This document shows positions 1,557 to 43,513 of a DNA stretch of 64,000 nucleotides, piece by piece. The notes beneath the pieces were generated by a model that made no database searches, was not told where the DNA came from, and was given only the letters and a program-made list of their open reading frames with translations. Position 1 is the stretch's first letter; each line of letters opens with the position of its first letter. The position numbers were made by a program, and so were the translations under genes. This DNA comes from an uncultured Treponema sp. GTDB taxonomy: Bacteria; Spirochaetota; Spirochaetia; Treponematales; Treponemataceae. The stretch lies in assembly GCF_946187725.1 (NCBI RefSeq), contig NZ_CAMHSK010000006.1:1-64000 (forward strand), written 5' to 3'.

Positions 1557-4500
1557 CTACTTCTGTTTTACTTCGCCCATGAGAGTTGTTCCATCGGCGA
1601 AGTGTGCAATTGTTGTGTAATAATAACCGTCTGGGATATCTTTATAATTATCACTTCCATAGGTAAAACTTGTGTTTGTTGTACCAGTATAAGTAACAAT
1701 ACCAGTTTCCTGAGCTCTAGCTTCCCATTCACGGATATATTGTTCAGTAGTTGCAGTTCCAAAACGCTCAGCATAAAGCTCAGAACTAAAGTCTCTTGAA
1801 CAGTACATAGTATGAACAAACACTGGATTATCTGTAAATATCTGGTAACCGTTAGCTCCCACTATCCAGTTTTTATTATTGCAGACGATTTCATTAGCAG
1901 TGCCCTTGTAACGAAGATAATCTGGATAAACATAGAGTGGCTGACTCTGAACAATTTCAAAATTATTTCTTCCATAACCAGAACCTTCGTACCAAACTGT
2001 ACTAGTATAATTTACAATAACTTGCATAAATTGGTTTTCATAATCACTGCAATCGACAGAATAGTAATACCTTGTTTCAGCAGCTATATTACCAACATAG
2101 AAACTATCTGTACCATTCACATCTTTCATTCGAGCAATTGTTGATCTTTGATAAGTAGGGCTATCAAATTCTACACACGGAGTCCATGAATTATCCGCAA
2201 GTTTCTGTATATTTACAAAATTTCCATGAATATGCTGTTCATCATTCTGTAGTTCGTTAGCAACAGGATATGATTCTGTTCTACGATGAATTCGTCCATA
2301 AGGCTGTGCAGAAACCTTAATCTGGTCTACAGATTCAACAGTTTCAAAACTGACTTCCGGAACATAATTTGCAATATAATATCTCATTAGATAAGGTGCA
2401 ACTTTCAGATAATTATTTTTCAATGGAGAATTATCTTCAAGATATGAGTATATATAATAATCTCCAAAATCAAGGCCAGCATATGGAATAGTCAAATATG
2501 CAGTTTCATTATAATATGTATCTGTTAGAGTAGATATAGTTTTATTGAATTCACCAGCATCAAGTTGCTCTTTAGTCAGATTTACACCGTAAGATTTAGG
2601 AACCACATAACAAGTAATTGGGTTAGGATTAGGAGACCTTTTTAACAAACCATTAATGTCATAAGGTTCTCTTCGTGCATCATATTCTCCATTAAGCCAT
2701 CCCCATGCTTGTAGGAATAATCTATAATTTCTATAATCATTAAATGACGCATGATTGTTTATGCCTCCGGTTATAAATGGAGGCTGATTATCAACAAGAG
2801 TCAAGTCAAGAGTCTGCTCGTCACTTTTTGCACATTCATTTCCCTGCGAGTCTAAAGCAACAAGATAAACAGTCTTTACAGTACCAGTTTTTACCCTGAT
2901 ATTTCTACCATCATAAAAACATTCACTGGCGTCATTTCTATCTCTGATTTCATCCAATCTAATAATATATCTATACTGAGAATAATCATAATCTTCATCT
3001 GAATATTCAATATCGATATCAAAGGTTGCGTATCCAGTATTAGGTTCATATATGACCTCACCAGCTTCATAACTTGAATCCGGCAGCGTCATTGTTGGAA
3101 ACTGTATACTGTCATCTGTAGGTGCCGTCACACCATTATAGTAAGCAAATGGTTTTGAAATACATAAAGGTCTATAGTCCTTAAAAGCATAATCCAAATG
3201 ACCTTTTTTACCTAATTGCGCAATAACCCAAGGGAACAAATAATAAGTTCCTTCACCATCGATATCAGGATCGTGTCCAGAAGTTCCTTTCCAATATTGT
3301 TTTATCTCATCTTTTGAAGGATTAGGAACAGTCGAAAAATAAAGTATTGGTTCATCATTTTCTCGCGGGTCCGTAACTATTATCCTATCATCTAGATAAA
3401 TACTATGCCCCATTAGTCCAGCAATGTATGTACTTTTGTAAAAAGGAAGTTCCAGTTCTTCAATGATACCATTTTCCTGCTCTACTTTAGCTCTTAATAT
3501 ATAGTCTTTATCGATATCTCTCTTTATATTACTAAGTGCTGTGTTGATTCTGTCTTTCAAATCGTAGTCTGTCCCAATATTACTACTAAACACTTCACCT
3601 TTATTAACATCATCCTCATATAAAGTAACTGTCAGATAGCGTGAAGTATTTAAATATGTGGTACCATAATGCTTATAGAACTTATCGCTATAAATTCGGA
3701 ATTCTGAAAAAGTGAAATCAGCCTCGTAGCAATTTTTCTCACTGTTATAAACAGGAACTATTGTTTGAAAATCATTTTTAGTGTAAATCAATATTTTATC
3801 TAAGCGCACATTATTTTGAGTGTCTTTAATGACATAATAATCTTTTTCAGTTTTATTTCCCTCGTTATCCCAAAGACTTATCGTAAGTTTAAACAGACCA
3901 TCTGCAGTTGTATGTTCAGAGTCAAAATCATATATGAACGCATAATTATACACTGTATTTCCATTGGTATCGTTGTCATATGAATCTACAATTCTAAATG
4001 AACGAGTTGAACTTGTTTCCTGAGCCACATAACCGCCTTCATTATCTTTCTTATAAGTTTCTGTTACCTGAACTTCTTTGATTCCGCTTTCCAAATCATA
4101 CCCTGAAAGAGTAATATACACTGAAGAAACATGGTTCGTACTATAAGTACCCCAACCATTTGAATATCTTAAAATTTTTTGCCAAGAACTTTCAGGTTGA
4201 TTAGAGAGTTCCCGATAAAAATGAGCACTCGTATCATTTGTAGAATAGAGATGAATATCAGAAATAACTGGAGGATTTGTTTCCTGAGAGCCAGAAACAA
4301 GACAATTTATTGCCAGAGAATTGTATATTTCTTCACTTGGGCACAGCGGATGTCCATCTTTATCTGTAATAGATTTTCCATTAGCATTCAAAGTTATTGT
4401 CATTGCCAGCTGGTTATTTTCATTTTTCACAAGATTTCTAAACGAACTTGTTGGAATAAGTATAAGTTCTGTGGAATCTGTTGAACTTTTCCATCTTTCA

Positions 4501-7500
4501 TAAAAGTACTCTTCGTAATGGATTCCATTCTTACCAGTCTTTGTAATTGTAATCGAGCCTGACGGTGATAAAATCTCCGATGCAGCGTCTATTTCTTTGT
4601 TAAATTTGAGATGTATATTAGAGTAACTGTTGAATGAATTTACGCTAAACAAGTCAACTGTACCATTCAACTTCACGCTCTGAACTATAGGCACAAGATA
4701 TGATTCAGCCTTAACCGTTACATTATCAACCTGCTCATAAATATACATTTTTGTTGAGATAGCTGAAGGATCTGCTATTTTGATTTTTGATTCGTCAATA
4801 TCATCTCCGGCAGAATCTTTTACTGTCCAGCCTGTAAACTGATAACCTGATGTTGGGGTAAATTTCAAATCAATTACATCACCGAGATTATAAGAAGTGT
4901 CTGTTACATTAAGATTTCCACCATCGGCCTCATAAGTAACGGAAACTTTTTTGCTTGATGTCGAATCTATTTCATAACGGCCAGAATATTCTTCTTCCAT
5001 ATAAATTGGATTATCACCGTCTTTATAATAGAAGATAGCTGGAACCGTAACGGTAATTGTTTTTTTGGTATTTAGTCCAGTAACATCAAGAAGTTTTGTG
5101 TTTTTAATCGTGATTATATTTCCGCTCAATGAACGAGTTTCAAAGAAATCACTGACATCATTTCCAGCCATTGTAATTTTGATTCTGTTCAGAAGCGATG
5201 AACATGCAACATCAAGATTTTTGTTGAATTCAATTGTAATCGTTGAATCTTTTGGATTTACATTGTTTGAATTCGGCGTAAACCCGGTAATCGCAGGCAA
5301 CAACACATCCTTCGCTGAAATATTGATTCCCCAGCCGCTTGTTCCTGAACCGACTGCGTCATTTGAGAAAATTGTGGCTTTGGCGGGATTTGTGCTGTCG
5401 ATTGTGAGTGTAAAATATGTTTTTGTGCCGCTTCCGTTCTTTACTGTGATTGTGCCGCTTGTTACATAGCCAGATGGGCTTACCGTGTAGCCTGATGTTG
5501 CAGATTCGACTTTCCAGCCTGCAAACTTATAGCCAGCTACGGCCGGGAATTCAAGATTCAGAGACTCCTCAATGTTCATCTCCTGATTTGTTCCGCTTGA
5601 ATGGAATGTGCCGTTAACGCTAATCTGTCTTCCTGTAACTGCCGCATCTGTTGTCGCAAAACGCACTTTTGTTTTTGTCATTGTCGAGCTGTTTACTCTG
5701 TACGACCAGCTGAAATCTTCATCAGCAACGGTGATTTTTGTTTTGCCGTCGGCTGCCATGTAGTAAATCTTATCGTGTGGAACTGTTACGGTCACGGTTT
5801 CAAACGAGTTGTTTACCGGGAGCATTTTGGCAGGTGAGAGAGTGACTGTCTTGTTGTCACTTGAAATGCTTGTAGAAAAATATGTGGTCTTGTTGAAATT
5901 TGAAGCGGTATATGTTACGAGCACTGCATCTTTTGTTTCGGCATTTATTTCATGGTCAAATTCGAGCACAATCGGCTCGTTTTTGGCGAATTCGGTGAGA
6001 GCATTTTCATTATACGGAGAGACTTTTGAAATTGACGGTCTTTTGTAACAAATCGCCGTAATGTTAAGTGTTGCGGCCTTGTTTGCAGTGATTACCGCCT
6101 CCTGCGATGATGAATTTGAATCTTTGAATGAAACCGCATCTGTGACGACATTTCCATCCGAATCAGTGATTTCCCAGGCATAGAACTGATATCCTTCAGC
6201 AATCGAATGAGAAATCGAAACATCTTCGCCGATATTGAATTCTTCGTAATTATTATGATTTACGATTCCTGCGGCAGTTGCCGGTGAAAAGGCTGCCCCA
6301 TCCTCACCGTTTTTGACGCTGAAATTTGCTTTTAATTTTGCATTCGTGCTGTGGTCGACCGTAAAATCAAAAGAGCTTTCTTTGAGGCTGATTTTTGTTG
6401 CGCCATCGATATAATACAAATCTTCCGGAACTGTTACCGCGATGATTTTTTTGCTTCCCTTTGGAACTGAAATCATTGCTGTGTTTTTAAGAGTGATTGT
6501 GTTTCCGTCAAGAGTTCTGGTCGTGTAATATGCGTCGAGGCTGTTTCCGTCTGAACTTACACGGATTTTGTTAAGGAGTTCGGCACACTTTGGCTCCAAA
6601 TTCTTATTGAATTTGATTACGATGTCCGAATCCTTTTTGCTTGTTCCTTCTGATGAAGGGCTTGTTTCTCTTATTACTAGTTTTTCGCTGACATTTGCGC
6701 TCACCACGGCAGGAACTGCATCATAGGCAACGATTTTTGTTGAAAGAGCGGTTTTGTCTGCGATTGAGATTTTGTCTTCATGAACATTTATGGTCCAGCC
6801 ATTGAACTGCCAGCCTTCGTTCAATTCAAAGGAAATTGTTCCTTCCTGCCCGATTGAATATTCACCTCTCGTAGAAGAAAGTTTTCCAGAGCCGCTTGCC
6901 GCTGTAAAGGTTACGGTTGCTTTTTCGTTTGTGCTTGAGTCGATTTTATAGTCGAAAGTGAATCCCTTTCCGCCAATCGAGATTTTTTTGCCGTCTGCAT
7001 TCAGATAATAGAAATCAGCCGGAATTGCGACAGTTACGGTCTTTGTCTGGCCTGATGCCACATCAATCATGTTTGATTTGTCGGCCGCAAAAGTGACTGT
7101 ATTTGCACTCACTCTCGGTGCAAGGAAACTTGATTTTACAGGAAAGCCGCCGACCGTAATTGTAATATTGTCGAGCTGTGCGATTCCTTCTTCATCGTCC
7201 GGCAAATCGTTACTGAAAGTCAATATAATAGAAGAATTCTTGCTTACGACCTTTGTTTTTTCCGGGCTGTATTCAGAAACTCTAAGTCGCGGTGCACAAA
7301 TTGCTTTAATCTGAGTAGCATTTAAATTATCTGTTTTTTCCATTACGGTTGCCGTTGTATCAGCACTGTCTTCATCGGCAACACGGATTATGCTTGGATT
7401 ATATTCCCATTTTACAAACTGATAATCTGGATTTTCGGTGAAACCAAGCGTGATTTTCTGACCGATTGAATAATCTTTTGAACCGGCAAGATAAACTGTG

Positions 7501-8416
7501 CCTTCGGTCGCATTACTTGTAAGGTTTACGGTTGCCTTTTCATCGGTTGCTTCCGTGATTCGATAGCTCCATGATTTGTCTGAACTCATCGAAACACCTT
7601 TTTCATCTGTAATATCTTTTGAAATTGTAACGCTTACGGTTTTATAAGATACGCCTGCCTCAAATTCAATCTGATTCTTTTTATCGACTGCAATTGTGAG
7701 GAATTTTCCTTCGATTGTTGGCCTAAGAAAGTGCTCAGCGATTGAAATTCCGTCCGAAGTAATTGAGATGTTCTTGAAGAAAACCTGACCGTTATATTTG
7801 TATGCCCAGATTTCATATTCGTCATCGTCTTCATCCAGGATTTCTTCTGCACCGCTTGGGATTTCGCTGTTCTTAAAAATAAAGCTTGATTTTGATGGGG
7901 CTTTAGTGAATTCCACGATGATTGAGCGGTCGCGGCTTACACCATTCGGCTCGTATTTTGGACTTGGCTCGCCGGCAAAAGCCAGTCGCTCTGCACACAA
8001 CGGCTTGATTCGGATGTCTTTTGAATCGATGGTGATTTTTGCCTTTGTTTTGACAGAATATGCGTCTTCAAATTCTACGCCTTCGATTTCTTCACCGCTT
8101 TCTTTGGAAACGGCAATCCATTTTGAAAAACTGTAGCTTGAATTCTCGGAGAAAGAAAGTTCAAAATCATAACCGACCTTTGCAGTATAATTGCCCGAAG
8201 GAAGAGTTGAGCCAGTGCCTTCGTCAGAAGAAACCAAAACGGTTACGGAAGCGGCTTTGGCAAAAGCGATGTCTGCATCAAGCTGTTCCTTGAAATCTCC
8301 GCCCTCAAAAATGTTATTGCAGGAAAGGAATAAAAGCGGTAAGGCAATACATAGTAATACCCCCCCCCATACAAATGAAAGTTTTTGTTTAGATTTTTTG
8401 CGTGGAACTTTTTCAT
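1557..8416 (-). CDS. Giant repeat lipoprotein, frame interrupted at a poly-G tract
   Basis: A 2,226-codon open frame that lacks a sensible start. Upstream of it in the same frame lies a full lipoprotein signal peptide (VLLCIALPLLFLSC, Cys lipobox), but no ATG precedes it in that frame. The only ATG with a good ribosome site (GGAG at 8423-8426, ATG at 8414-8416) reads into this frame only if one base is gained at or before the G9 tract (plus-strand C at 8360-8368). With ten Gs the product is about 2,286 residues. The N-terminal half has six modules, each pairing an InlB-B-like unit (GYxFxxW core) with a SbsA/Big_5-like Ig unit (SxIxIxFNKNL core). The C-terminal roughly 900 residues are non-repetitive, Tyr/Asp-rich and coded by more AT-rich DNA. 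It is likely a surface adhesin-type lipoprotein. The break is either a phase-off state or a homopolymer error. Confidence 0.85.
8360..8368 (-). repeat. Poly-G9 tract (C9 on plus) in the lipoprotein signal-peptide region
   Basis: Nine consecutive C on the plus strand, nine G in the coding direction, lie between the ATG at 8416 and the hydrophobic signal-peptide core. The ATG frame and the long frame meet only with 10 or 7 Gs. Slippage at this tract would therefore switch synthesis of the lipoprotein on and off. Confidence 0.85.
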
Positions 8417-8512: not shown

Positions 8513-10069
8513 CTACAAATCCTGAGCGAATTTTAAGTCGTCTTTTCGGCTGATTTTAGCGTTCAAAGGTGAATCGCACACGAAGTCACCGTTCAAATCA
8601 ACGTCGCCGCTTGAAACGATTTTTACCCGAACCAGACGGCCTGTTTTGACAGCCTCGCTTTCTGATTCAGAACTTCGGTCATAACGCACGACAACGCTTC
8701 CGTCAACTTCTGGAGCCTGGAACCATGCCCTGCCGATTGCAAGTCCTTCATCAGGATTTTCCTGACTCTCGGAAAGCACTTCCTCAATCAGAATATCGTA
8801 TTCCTGACCACAGCGGGTTTTGAGCCTTTCGCGAGTGATTTCTGCCTGAATTTCAACAAGTTCCGAAGCGCGTTTTTCGGCTGTTTTATGAGGAACCTGT
8901 TTTTTAAAACTATATGCGGGAGTATCGTCTTCTTTGGAATATGCAAAACAGCCGCTCCAATCGGTCGCAGTCTCGTTTAGGAAAGTCTTTGTGTTTTCAA
9001 AAGAACTCTCGCTTTCACCAGGGAAGCCTGCAAGGAAAGTGGTTCGAATTGCGGCATCAGGGAAAGTTTCGCGGATTTTTGCAATAAGCGCTTTATATTT
9101 TTGATGAGAGCCTACCCGGTTCATCGCTTTGATGATTTCATCATCGCCACTCTGGAAAGGAATGTCAAAATAATGCAGGAATCGTGAATCAGCTTTCATA
9201 ACCGGAAGAATGTCTTCATTAAAGTGATCCGGATGAATGTAAAGCAGACGGACTGCAAAAGTTCCTTCGATTTCAGAAATCATTTTGATAAGGCGAGCAA
9301 GCCCTGATTCAGAATTAGACGCGGATTCACACAGATTCACGCGGATATTATTTCCATCATCATTTAATCTGCGTTCATCTGCGTCCATCTGCGTCAAAAT
9401 TTGACTTCCAGGCGTGCCGTTCGGCAGGAAAGTTCTTCCGTCACCAAAACAATTGTCATCGGCACCTGTGCCATAGGCGGCCAAATCCTGACCAATCAGA
9501 TTGATTTCATAAACGCCTTTTGAAACCAGAAGTTTGATTTCTTCTATTATATCGGCGGCTTTTCGGCTTCGTAAATTGCCACGGATAATCGGAATTGCAC
9601 AGAATGAACAGCGGTTATTGCAGCCTTCAGTGATTTTTACGAAAGCGGTACCAGGGAATGAAAGCAGCAAATCTCTGTCGCCACAGCAAACGCCTTTCTG
9701 CTCCGGAACGAGCACCGGCCGTTCGTCCTTCATCAGTGGTTCAATGACCTTGTAAATCTGGCTCAAATCACCGTTTCCGAAAAAGCCGTCTGCTTCAAGA
9801 AGTTCATCCTTTAAATCGTTTGCATATCGCTCTGCAAGACAGCCCGCCAGAAGAATCTTTGCTTTTGGGTACATTTGCCTTGCGCTCATTACTGCGTTAA
9901 TGCTTTCGGTTTTAGCAGATTCAATAAATCCACAAGAATTGACAACGATTAGATCAGCTTCTGTTGGTTCAAAAGTCTGAACCCAATCCTTTTTTTTGAG
10001 AAGATTTATGATAAGTTCGCCATCAACCTGATTTTTGGCGCATCCATGCTGGTCAATAAAAAATTTCAT
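8513..10069 (-). CDS. rimO: Ribosomal protein S12 methylthiotransferase RimO
   Basis: A 518-residue radical-SAM methylthiotransferase that adds a beta-methylthio group to the conserved Asp of ribosomal protein S12. The N-terminal UPF0004 domain carries cluster cysteines C10 (QHGCAKNQVD), C46 (VNSCGFI) and C77 (LAGCLAE). The radical-SAM triad is C150, C154, C157 (GCNNRCSFC), and a C-terminal TRAM-like region occupies about residues 440-515. It is longer than typical RimO (about 430-450), partly because of a 29-residue in-frame insert at about 223-251 that derives from a DNA repeat (9317-9403). It starts one base after the stop of the rodZ-like gene, so translation is probably coupled, and it is the last gene of the ftsH-lolA-rodZ run. 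Specificity for S12 rather than tRNA is inferred from the QHGC and overall family resemblance. Confidence 0.93.
   Translation of the reverse strand: MKFFIDQHGCAKNQVDGELIINLLKKKDWVQTFEPTEADLIVVNSCGFIESAKTESINAVMSARQMYPKAKILLAGCLAERYANDLKDELLEADGFFGNGDLSQIYKVIEPLMKDERPVLVPEQKGVCCGDRDLLLSFPGTAFVKITEGCNNRCSFCAIPIIRGNLRSRKAADIIEEIKLLVSKGVYEINLIGQDLAAYGTGADDNCFGDGRTFLPNGTPGSQILTQMDADERRLNDDGNNIRVNLCESASNSESGLARLIKMISEIEGTFAVRLLYIHPDHFNEDILPVMKADSRFLHYFDIPFQSGDDEIIKAMNRVGSHQKYKALIAKIRETFPDAAIRTTFLAGFPGESESSFENTKTFLNETATDWSGCFAYSKEDDTPAYSFKKQVPHKTAEKRASELVEIQAEITRERLKTRCGQEYDILIEEVLSESQENPDEGLAIGRAWFQAPEVDGSVVVRYDRSSESESEAVKTGRLVRVKIVSSGDVDLNGDFVCDSPLNAKISRKDDLKFAQDL
9317..9403. repeat. Interspersed repeat inserted in frame in rimO
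   Basis: The plus strand holds ATCTGCGTTC, ATCTGCGTCC and ATCTGCGTCA in tandem (9368-9397), and facing them GCGGATTCAC and CAGATTCACGCGGAT (9320-9345), i.e. decamer-like units in direct and inverted order around an AT-rich centre. I recognise this ATCTGCGT(T/C)C style of repeat, from memory, as an intergenic repeat in various bacteria. Here its 87 nt equal 29 codons, contain no stop in the rimO frame, and encode a hydrophilic Asp/Asn/Arg-rich loop. Confidence 0.7.
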
Positions 10070-41692: not shown

Positions 41693-42533
41693 AAATCTTC
41701 TCACAAAATTTTGCATTTTATTTCCATTAATTCTCGCAAATCCGCTTGTTCATTCCGAAGAAATTAAATTTCAGGCAGATTCCATGACAGGCGTTTCGGG
41801 AAGCAAAAATGACGACACAAAACTCATCGGGAATGCTTTCGTAAAAACCAGCACAATGGAAATCAAAGCGGACTCAATCATACTGAACGGCGACGATTTT
41901 CGATACATCACAGCGGAAGGCAGCGTCGAAGGCAAAAACACAGAGACAAAAATGGACTTCACCTGCGGCAAATTGCGCTACGACAGGCAGACAAAACTGG
42001 CACGCCTCGAAGATTCAGTGCACATGATTGACCTTGAAAACGATGTCACAATCGATTCGCAAATCATTGAATACAACCAGAACAAAGAAATCGCCACGAT
42101 GCAGATTGGCGTTACCCTCAAACAAAAAAACAACACTTGTACGGCCGCATTTGCAATCTACCGAAAAGCCGCTCAAATGCTTGAAATGAGCGGAAACCCA
42201 AAAATCGTTCAGGGCGATGATACTTTCCGCGCCCAGGAAATCGTGCTGAACCTCGAATCGCAGGAAATCACGCTTTCGGGCAGGGTAAGCGGAACTGTCA
42301 CCGATTCAAAGAAAGAAGAGCCTAAAAAAGACGAAGAAAAGCAGCCTGAAGAAAAATCAGAAGGTGGTGACGAAAAGCCGGAACTTCCTTCCATAACGGA
42401 CATTCTTAATCAGGATGCACAGGCAAAAGAAAAGACAGAAAATGCTGAGTCTTCAAAGTCCGAAGAAAACGAAAAATCAGCCCTTGAAACCAAAGAATCA
42501 AAAACTGAAAACGATAAGGTGAAGAAAGAATGA
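41685..42533 (+). CDS. lptA: LptA-like periplasmic transport protein (OstA family)
   Basis: 282 residues with a signal peptide (KFCILFPLILANPLVHSEE). The OstA-like repeat pattern is clear: IKFQADSMTGVSGSKNDDTKLIGNAFVKT, IKADSIILNGDD, GKLRYDRQTKLARLE, QEIVLNLESQEITLSGRVSG. LptA forms the periplasmic bridge for lipid export. A Lys/Glu-rich tail of about 80 residues is extra to the usual 185-residue protein and may be disordered. The start ATG lies inside the end of lptC and the stop overlaps lptB (ATGA). Confidence 0.85.
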   Translation: MNKNLLTKFCILFPLILANPLVHSEEIKFQADSMTGVSGSKNDDTKLIGNAFVKTSTMEIKADSIILNGDDFRYITAEGSVEGKNTETKMDFTCGKLRYDRQTKLARLEDSVHMIDLENDVTIDSQIIEYNQNKEIATMQIGVTLKQKNNTCTAAFAIYRKAAQMLEMSGNPKIVQGDDTFRAQEIVLNLESQEITLSGRVSGTVTDSKKEEPKKDEEKQPEEKSEGGDEKPELPSITDILNQDAQAKEKTENAESSKSEENEKSALETKESKTENDKVKKE

Positions 42534-43513
42534 GCGACGAAGAAATTGATGGAATTGAAAATACAGAGACTTTTGAAGGGGGAAGCGAGTTTTGCGAACC
42601 TCAATCAATAGAATCGGACGCAAAACTCGTTAGCGAAGCGACATTCCCCCTCGCTCCAACCGCTGACGCGTTTTCCGCTACCCCTTCTAACGGTGGCCCT
42701 GCCCCCGTAACGCCCCCGGATAATTCTACTGAAAGCGAGTCATTCGATTCAGAAGAAACTGAACCGGTTGATTCTGAAGGAAAACCTTATCACACCTTGA
42801 GAGTCAGTTCTCTTTACAAGTCGTTCGGTAAAAAGAAAGTCGTTCAGGGTGTTGATTTTCAGATGCACACAGGAGAAGTTCTCGGTCTTTTGGGGCCAAA
42901 CGGAGCCGGAAAAACAACAAGTTTCTACATGATTGTCGGCTTCTACAAGCCCACTTCAGGTGAAATTTTTCTGGATAACAAGAGAATCACTCCGCTGCCG
43001 ATGTTCAAGCGTGCTCAACTTGGAATTTCTTATCTGCCGCAGGAACCAAGTGTTTTTAAAAAGCTCACTGTTGAAGAAAACATCTGGTCAATTCTGGAAA
43101 CCCGTCCTGATTTGACACGAAAAGAAAAAAAACAAAAACTTGAAGAATTAATAGAAGAATTTGCGATTGGAAGAATCAGAAAGCAGCTCGCCTACACTCT
43201 TTCGGGTGGAGAACGCCGCAGAACGGAAATTGCTCGCTCACTCGCAATTGAACCGAAATTTCTTCTTTTGGACGAACCATTCGCAGGAATTGACCCGATT
43301 GCGGTCGCCGACATCAAAGGAATGATAAAATTGCTCGCGAACAGAGGAATTGGCGTTCTGATTACAGACCACAATGTCCGGGATACGCTTGAAATTACTG
43401 ACCGAGCCATTATCGTAAGCACCGGTCAGATTTTGATTCAGGGCACCAAACAGGAAATCATCGACAGCCCAGAAGCCCGCGAGATTTACCTCGGCGAAGG
43501 CTTCCATATGTAG
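42530..43513 (+). CDS. lptB: LPS-type export ABC ATPase LptB, with repeat-derived N-terminal extension
   Basis: 327 residues. The ABC domain begins near residue 88 (LRVSSLYKSFGKKKVVQGVDF): Walker A GLLGPNGAGKTTSFYM, signature LSGGERRRTEIARSL, Walker B FLLLDEPFAGIDPIA and switch His in LITDHNVRDTLE. It is closest to LptB, which powers lipid extraction from the inner membrane. Typical LptB is about 240 residues; here an extra about 85 residues precede the domain, of which residues 17-63 are coded by an interspersed palindromic element (42578-42717). The extension is Pro/Ser/Glu-rich and probably disordered. The gene is translationally coupled to lptA by a 4-nt overlap. Confidence 0.95.
   Translation: MSDEEIDGIENTETFEGGSEFCEPQSIESDAKLVSEATFPLAPTADAFSATPSNGGPAPVTPPDNSTESESFDSEETEPVDSEGKPYHTLRVSSLYKSFGKKKVVQGVDFQMHTGEVLGLLGPNGAGKTTSFYMIVGFYKPTSGEIFLDNKRITPLPMFKRAQLGISYLPQEPSVFKKLTVEENIWSILETRPDLTRKEKKQKLEELIEEFAIGRIRKQLAYTLSGGERRRTEIARSLAIEPKFLLLDEPFAGIDPIAVADIKGMIKLLANRGIGVLITDHNVRDTLEITDRAIIVSTGQILIQGTKQEIIDSPEAREIYLGEGFHM
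42578..42717 (+). repeat. Palindromic GC-rich element, copy A (in frame inside lptB)
   Basis: Starts GGGGGAAGCGAGTTTTGCG and mirrors it with CGCAAAACTCGTTAGCGAAG...TTCCCCC (hairpin 42578-42649), followed by CCCCTTCTAACGG and the end motif GCCCCCGTAACGCCCCC (42701-42717). The 20-mer at 42621-42640 recurs exactly, in reverse orientation, in the Maf gene at 57754-57773, and the 17-mer end motif recurs exactly at 57626-57642. Confidence 0.9.

Follow-up and report, generated by a model that had tools for sequence, protein, structure and literature searches.

The window, that is, the whole stretch of 64,000 nucleotides that was analysed, belongs to a gut Treponema-type genome. On its minus strand, at 8513-10069, lies rimO, which encodes the ribosomal protein S12 methylthiotransferase, a product of 518 amino acids with the UPF0004, radical SAM and TRAM domains (Pfam). 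The ORF scores 381 bits against the TIGR01125 equivalog model (cut-off 357), and its product matches the structure of T. maritima RimO (4jc0) with an E value of 1.5e-79. It should be added that the gene adjoins an ORF of 2226 aa (1557-8237, minus strand), which has the look of a large surface protein built of repeats, its many domains being similar to one another.

Inside rimO we found a copy of a palindromic repeat, designated here family A, at 9318-9395 (no strand assigned; the family model matches 9315-9399 with 85.6 bits). According to the sequence and the alignment of copies, it is composed of (i) arm 1, GACGCGGAT-TC-ACACAGAT-TC-ACGCGGAT, with three units at a 10-nt period (9318-9346, plus strand); (ii) an AT-rich centre of 20 nt, whose length and sequence vary among copies (9347-9366, plus); and (iii) arm 2, ATCTGCGT-TC-ATCTGCGT-CC-ATCTGCGTC, the inverse of arm 1 (9367-9395, plus). 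The architecture is that of three 8-mers ACRCRGAT at 10-nt spacing, the centre and three inverse units, the 8-mers being split by unpaired 2-nt linkers. The initial annotation had described partly inverted units around an AT-rich centre; the units and the centre were correctly recognized, but the palindrome is complete. Its 18-nt tandem motif gave two overlapping matches (0.1 expected) and occurs nowhere else in the 64 kb. The frame is intact across the palindrome, which is read through without a stop in the single 518-aa ORF and encodes residues L225-S251. The claim of a repeat-derived in-frame insert in RimO was thus borne out, in an ORF that passes the RimO cut-off, while the bounds proposed for it, residues 223-251, were right in location and about two residues off.

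As minus-strand RNA the palindrome folds 6.25 standard deviations better than shuffled sequences. A structured RNA was ruled out by covariation below that of shuffles and by the lack of any match in an Rfam search of the window. In the covariation test of aligned copies, unit changes on one side of the hairpin were unmatched on the other; since they do not compensate, it is the DNA 8-mer that is kept and not an RNA stem.

Searches with the rimO repeat at the DNA level revealed 12 further places in its own genome (E values from 2e-13 to 5e-5), and a model built from 12 aligned copies detected about 18 strong copies genome-wide. The elements are usually about 70-85 nt long, rarely about 130 nt. 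In the copy alignment the 8-mer units ACGCRGAT are retained and vary at fixed positions; linkers and centre differ among copies. Among about two dozen own-genome copies examined, the one in rimO is the only one located within a long ORF, in agreement with the earlier impression that the DNA resembles a noncoding interspersed repeat. When about 105 copies from several genomes were considered, the convincing in-frame cases were rimO, an ABC transporter ATPase (G023) and an MMPL transporter (G022), and both of the latter possess their Pfam domain. In the MMPL gene (L155, 421-2844, minus strand) the repeat keeps the frame and falls in a linker that joins membrane segments; comparison of relatives revealed that this linker is variable and bears another extra stretch in G020. 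The reading frames differ, giving TQMDADERRL in rimO and SDADKHRYTQM in the MMPL transporter.

Family A was found in 17 of 59 sampled congeners. An exact pattern search detected the same architecture in MAGs of Treponema, Acidobacteria, Chloroflexi, Betaproteobacteria and Thermomonas (for the palindrome of identical architecture in MAGs of Acidobacteria, Chloroflexi and Proteobacteria see L242-L269). No description was found in literature searches with the sequence of the repeat itself, and searches for Treponema repeats returned nothing relevant. Some copies are themselves modified: a 64-nt third repeat (CATACGCCACTTAGTGTCG...GCGGCTAATG) is nested in a copy from G084 (L353, 1518-1594) that is otherwise identical to L044 and L074, and in L156, L158, L350 and L071 the centre is about 50-60 nt longer and contains an inverted repeat of its own (ATACGAAA...TTTCGTAT).

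The predicted structure of RimO (pTM 0.87) contains a sole long stretch with pLDDT below 50, residues 224-252, which corresponds to the insert and agrees with the suggestion that it forms a loop. In the model this disordered loop is flanked by the core strand 188-192 on one side and the core helix 256-265 on the other. The insertion site is probably solvent-exposed and tolerant. In T. maritima RimO the equivalent loop has about six residues (comparison with 4jc0); in the genus it is long throughout. At the DNA level the hypervariable segment, from GTPGS to ESGL, occupies 9308-9418 on the minus strand, as delimited by comparison with congeners and by the predicted disorder.

We scored the contents of this loop among the 200 congeners searched, most of which are MAGs. 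Family A occupies it in six species (G000, G023, G079, G084, G086 and G190). In G105 it holds A2, with CCACAGAT-type arms and part of the centre common with A. The loops of G051 and G022 carry B1, a GC-rich repeat unrelated to A and interspersed in most genomes searched, and B2-like inserts, 76% alike over 78 nt, were detected in G039 and the distant G107. A short linker with no repeat is present in G070 (88% identity), G020, G038 and many others, and the A insert is likewise absent from distant congeners. As the initial annotation had proposed to check by alignment, the insert is missing from several close relatives, but most of them carry the same or another repeat. Among the congeners searched there was no empty site with identical flanks from which the exact junction or a target duplication could be read. 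It had also been stated that conservation of the insert across distant treponemes, with ordinary codon variation, would speak against its origin from a repeat; the loop differs among relatives, and most pairs do not display such variation.

The distribution of inserts conflicts with the history of the gene. In the tree of rimO without the loop, G051, which carries B1, groups with G105 (100%), and G022, likewise with B1, is joined to G086, which carries A (92%). Monophyly of the B1 carriers (AU test, p 5e-7) and of the A carriers (p 2e-5) is rejected, which rules out purely vertical descent of a single insert. It should be kept in mind that this tree is an average, because rimO is itself mosaic.

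Inserts from different species mostly resemble each other much more closely than synonymous sites do. Between G000 and G023, 107 of 174 four-fold sites outside the loop differ, compared with 6 of 84 nt in the insert, where the changes are mostly non-synonymous; in the B1 pair L016/L017 the four-fold differences are 88/182 outside and 1/24 inside (Fisher p 1e-5). Selection at the protein level was rejected as the cause of the low divergence, given that the changes are mostly non-synonymous and the four-fold sites nearly unchanged. We likewise rejected gene conversion as the source of the A insert in rimO, since the nearest copy elsewhere in the same genome is about 84% identical at best. The sister genes L122 (G084) and L142 (G190) depart from this pattern: they are 5% different overall and 20% within the insert, which in L142 lies near a contig end and has a decayed 3' arm. 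A tract of the G084 gene (ORF positions about 690-825) mostly matches G023 (L015) and reaches beyond the insert; it bears the signature of between-species recombination, and rimO contains at least one other patch of this type (336-447).

The best explanation, to which we assign a probability of about 0.8, is that a copy of an interspersed palindromic repeat landed in, or recombined into, the long disordered loop of RimO and that the enzyme survives. A family A copy would have entered by either route, and RimO would now carry about 27 superfluous residues that the loop accommodates; the enzyme would survive because additional residues are tolerated there and the frame read through the copy contains no stop. 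On this passive account RimO would still work and the inserted peptide is presumably neutral. Exchange between species together with recurrent insertion, by whatever way of moving the repeat may have, would keep renewing the loop, which would give the inserts a younger appearance than that of the surrounding gene. With the same repeat, an unrelated one or nothing present in related species, the loop would serve repeatedly as a landing place of mobile-like DNA. The analysis demonstrates the identity of the repeat, its frame, the variable occupancy, the conflict with the tree and one recombinant tract. Besides the lack of an empty site with identical flanks, the mosaic nature of rimO, the predominance of MAGs and the position of the L142 insert near a contig end, the following counts against the proposed explanation: in L014/L015 and L016/L017 the low divergence breaks off no more than a few nucleotides from the insert edges, an abrupt limit not expected of ordinary homologous recombination.

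Sharing of inserts could also result from independent recent insertions at one preferred target, with no exchange of rimO segments; we consider this a possible but rather improbable account. It fits with the non-monophyly of the B1 carriers, and B1 copies from different genomes often share 90-95% identity along most of the element, so that two independent B1 inserts could reach 96%. The B2-type inserts of G039 and of the distant G107 likewise seem to have arisen separately. Against it, the A copies in rimO share centre, linkers and tails, and the closest other genomic copy is only about 84% identical, which indicates orthology; furthermore, the recombinant tract of L122 extends past the insert.

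Somewhat less favoured still is a stronger version in which the loop is a cassette site, where A, A2, B1 and B2 trade places among species through short exchange events, the palindromes themselves seeding the content and keeping it uniform. If true, a DNA-level process would rewrite part of a conserved enzyme more rapidly than descent does.

Of about the same low likelihood, in our opinion, is the possibility that the palindrome is a selected DNA site, conserved even within a gene, to which a protein binds with a 10-bp spacing or which acts as a signal for recombination or uptake. It draws on the intergenic copies. In 13 orthologous intergenic pairs, picked among strong model matches and hence favouring conserved arms, the element is 95% identical, compared with 83% in the first 20 nt of flank and 74-83% further out (74-84% in the flanks overall). 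Linkers and centre, which are barely weighted by the model, are nevertheless 92% identical, and in several pairs the element is 100% identical with flanks near 78%. Besides, the rimO arms of L014 and L015 differ at one of 50 unit positions, and the lack of compensation across the hairpin agrees with a conserved 8-mer. The over-conservation of intergenic copies may reflect DNA constraint or between-species exchange. On the other hand, the conservation of arms is partly ascertained by the choice of pairs, the 3' arm has decayed in L142, several sites hold a different subfamily in a relative, and searches of 42 among the 59 congeners yielded no member of the family, which is accordingly not essential.

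Intergenic sites can differ in subfamily between species. In L338 (1548-1625) and L356 (2817-2890), and likewise in L008 and L361, the same site holds an ACGCRGAT-type palindrome in one species and a CCACAGAT-type palindrome in the other, with the outer flanks kept. This is the same switch as in the rimO of G105.

Radical-SAM active sites lie on the face of the barrel from which this loop follows. That the inserted peptide was co-opted and is kept for RimO function, for example for contact with S12 or the ribosome, is very unlikely: the loop does follow a barrel strand on the active-site face and is long genus-wide, but close relatives have unrelated peptides (A, A2, B1, B2) or none there, the changes inside the inserts are mostly non-synonymous and the loop is predicted to be disordered.

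In-gene palindromic repeats are already known, best from Rickettsia and Wolbachia. The palindromic elements of these bacteria (RPE/WPE) are interspersed, occur also between genes, and sit within conserved genes, in frame and at exposed positions; different RPE groups may stand close together in orthologs (PMC3767692, PMC2229807, PMC10969869). Family A resembles them in being palindromic, in having intergenic copies as well as in-frame copies inside conserved genes, and in the tolerant and probably exposed site. It differs in its spirochaete host, in its 10-nt periodic 8-mer arms and, by the published descriptions, in size (about 70-85 nt, rarely about 130, vs 100-150 nt for RPE). RPE/WPE are also defined by one conserved peptide and frame, whereas the frames of family A in rimO and MMPL are different.

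Other known repeats are closer in single features. CGTC-tagged REPs (CGTC-1 to -4) have CGTC at one end and no known transposase, are recorded from several phyla including Spirochaetes and have intragenic copies (PMC3733652). Family A likewise consists of palindromes with CGTC at one end and includes intragenic copies, but in these REPs a stem of 8-9 bp closes a loop of 4-5 nt and is followed by a CCA tail, whereas each arm of family A comprises three blocks of 8-9 bp, the loop measures 7-25 nt or more and the tail is lacking. Interspersed palindromes, sometimes intragenic, are also known as GTAG REPs (PMC3733652); unlike GTAG REP/RAYT systems, family A has no GTAG tag, and the Y1 transposase (PF01797) was not found in its own genome or in most carriers (G000, G023, G051, G022, G004, G028 and G020 were searched), which rules out a RAYT-mobilised REP. 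In enterobacteria and Neisseria, small repeats fused in frame with host ORFs are known as intragenic MITE fusions (PMC2229807). Family A shares with them the position of a small repeat in frame in a host ORF; our comparisons yielded no empty site with intact flanks in which a target duplication could show, and no parent element. In short, family A acts like the in-frame Rickettsia palindromic elements and is not one of them, and it departs from the RPE/WPE and REP kinds in size, arm structure, frame or transposase.

What is new here is that repeat families unrelated to each other have repeatedly filled one loop of a conserved enzyme in closely related species, in conflict with the tree of the gene. 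For the elements of Rickettsia and Wolbachia, published work did not decide between insertion hotspots and one diverged insert as the origin of orthologs that bear different repeats (PMC3767692). In contrast to RPE/WPE, the RimO loop holds families that are clearly unrelated, distributed at variance with the gene tree, which makes this question directly testable here. The loop variants form a natural series for RimO, and the repeat family spans phyla, with copies nearly identical between species while the neighbouring DNA diverges.

The initial annotation counted RimO as the third gene of the window, after lptB and Maf, with a repeat-derived insert. A Maf insert was not found in the window by motif and Pfam searches; the claim holds in part for lptB, whose product has a repeat-like N-terminal tail. 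In lptB (42530-43513) the N-terminal region of about 80 residues before the LptB core includes a segment (SEATFPLAPTADAFSATPSNGGPAPVTPP) that looks like a repeat and is related to the GC-rich B2. Among 11 relatives, only G070 has a similar segment, and the lptB genes of G079, G023 and G084 contain a different, tandemly repeated one (GENFPEENSR...IQGGISGSQ).
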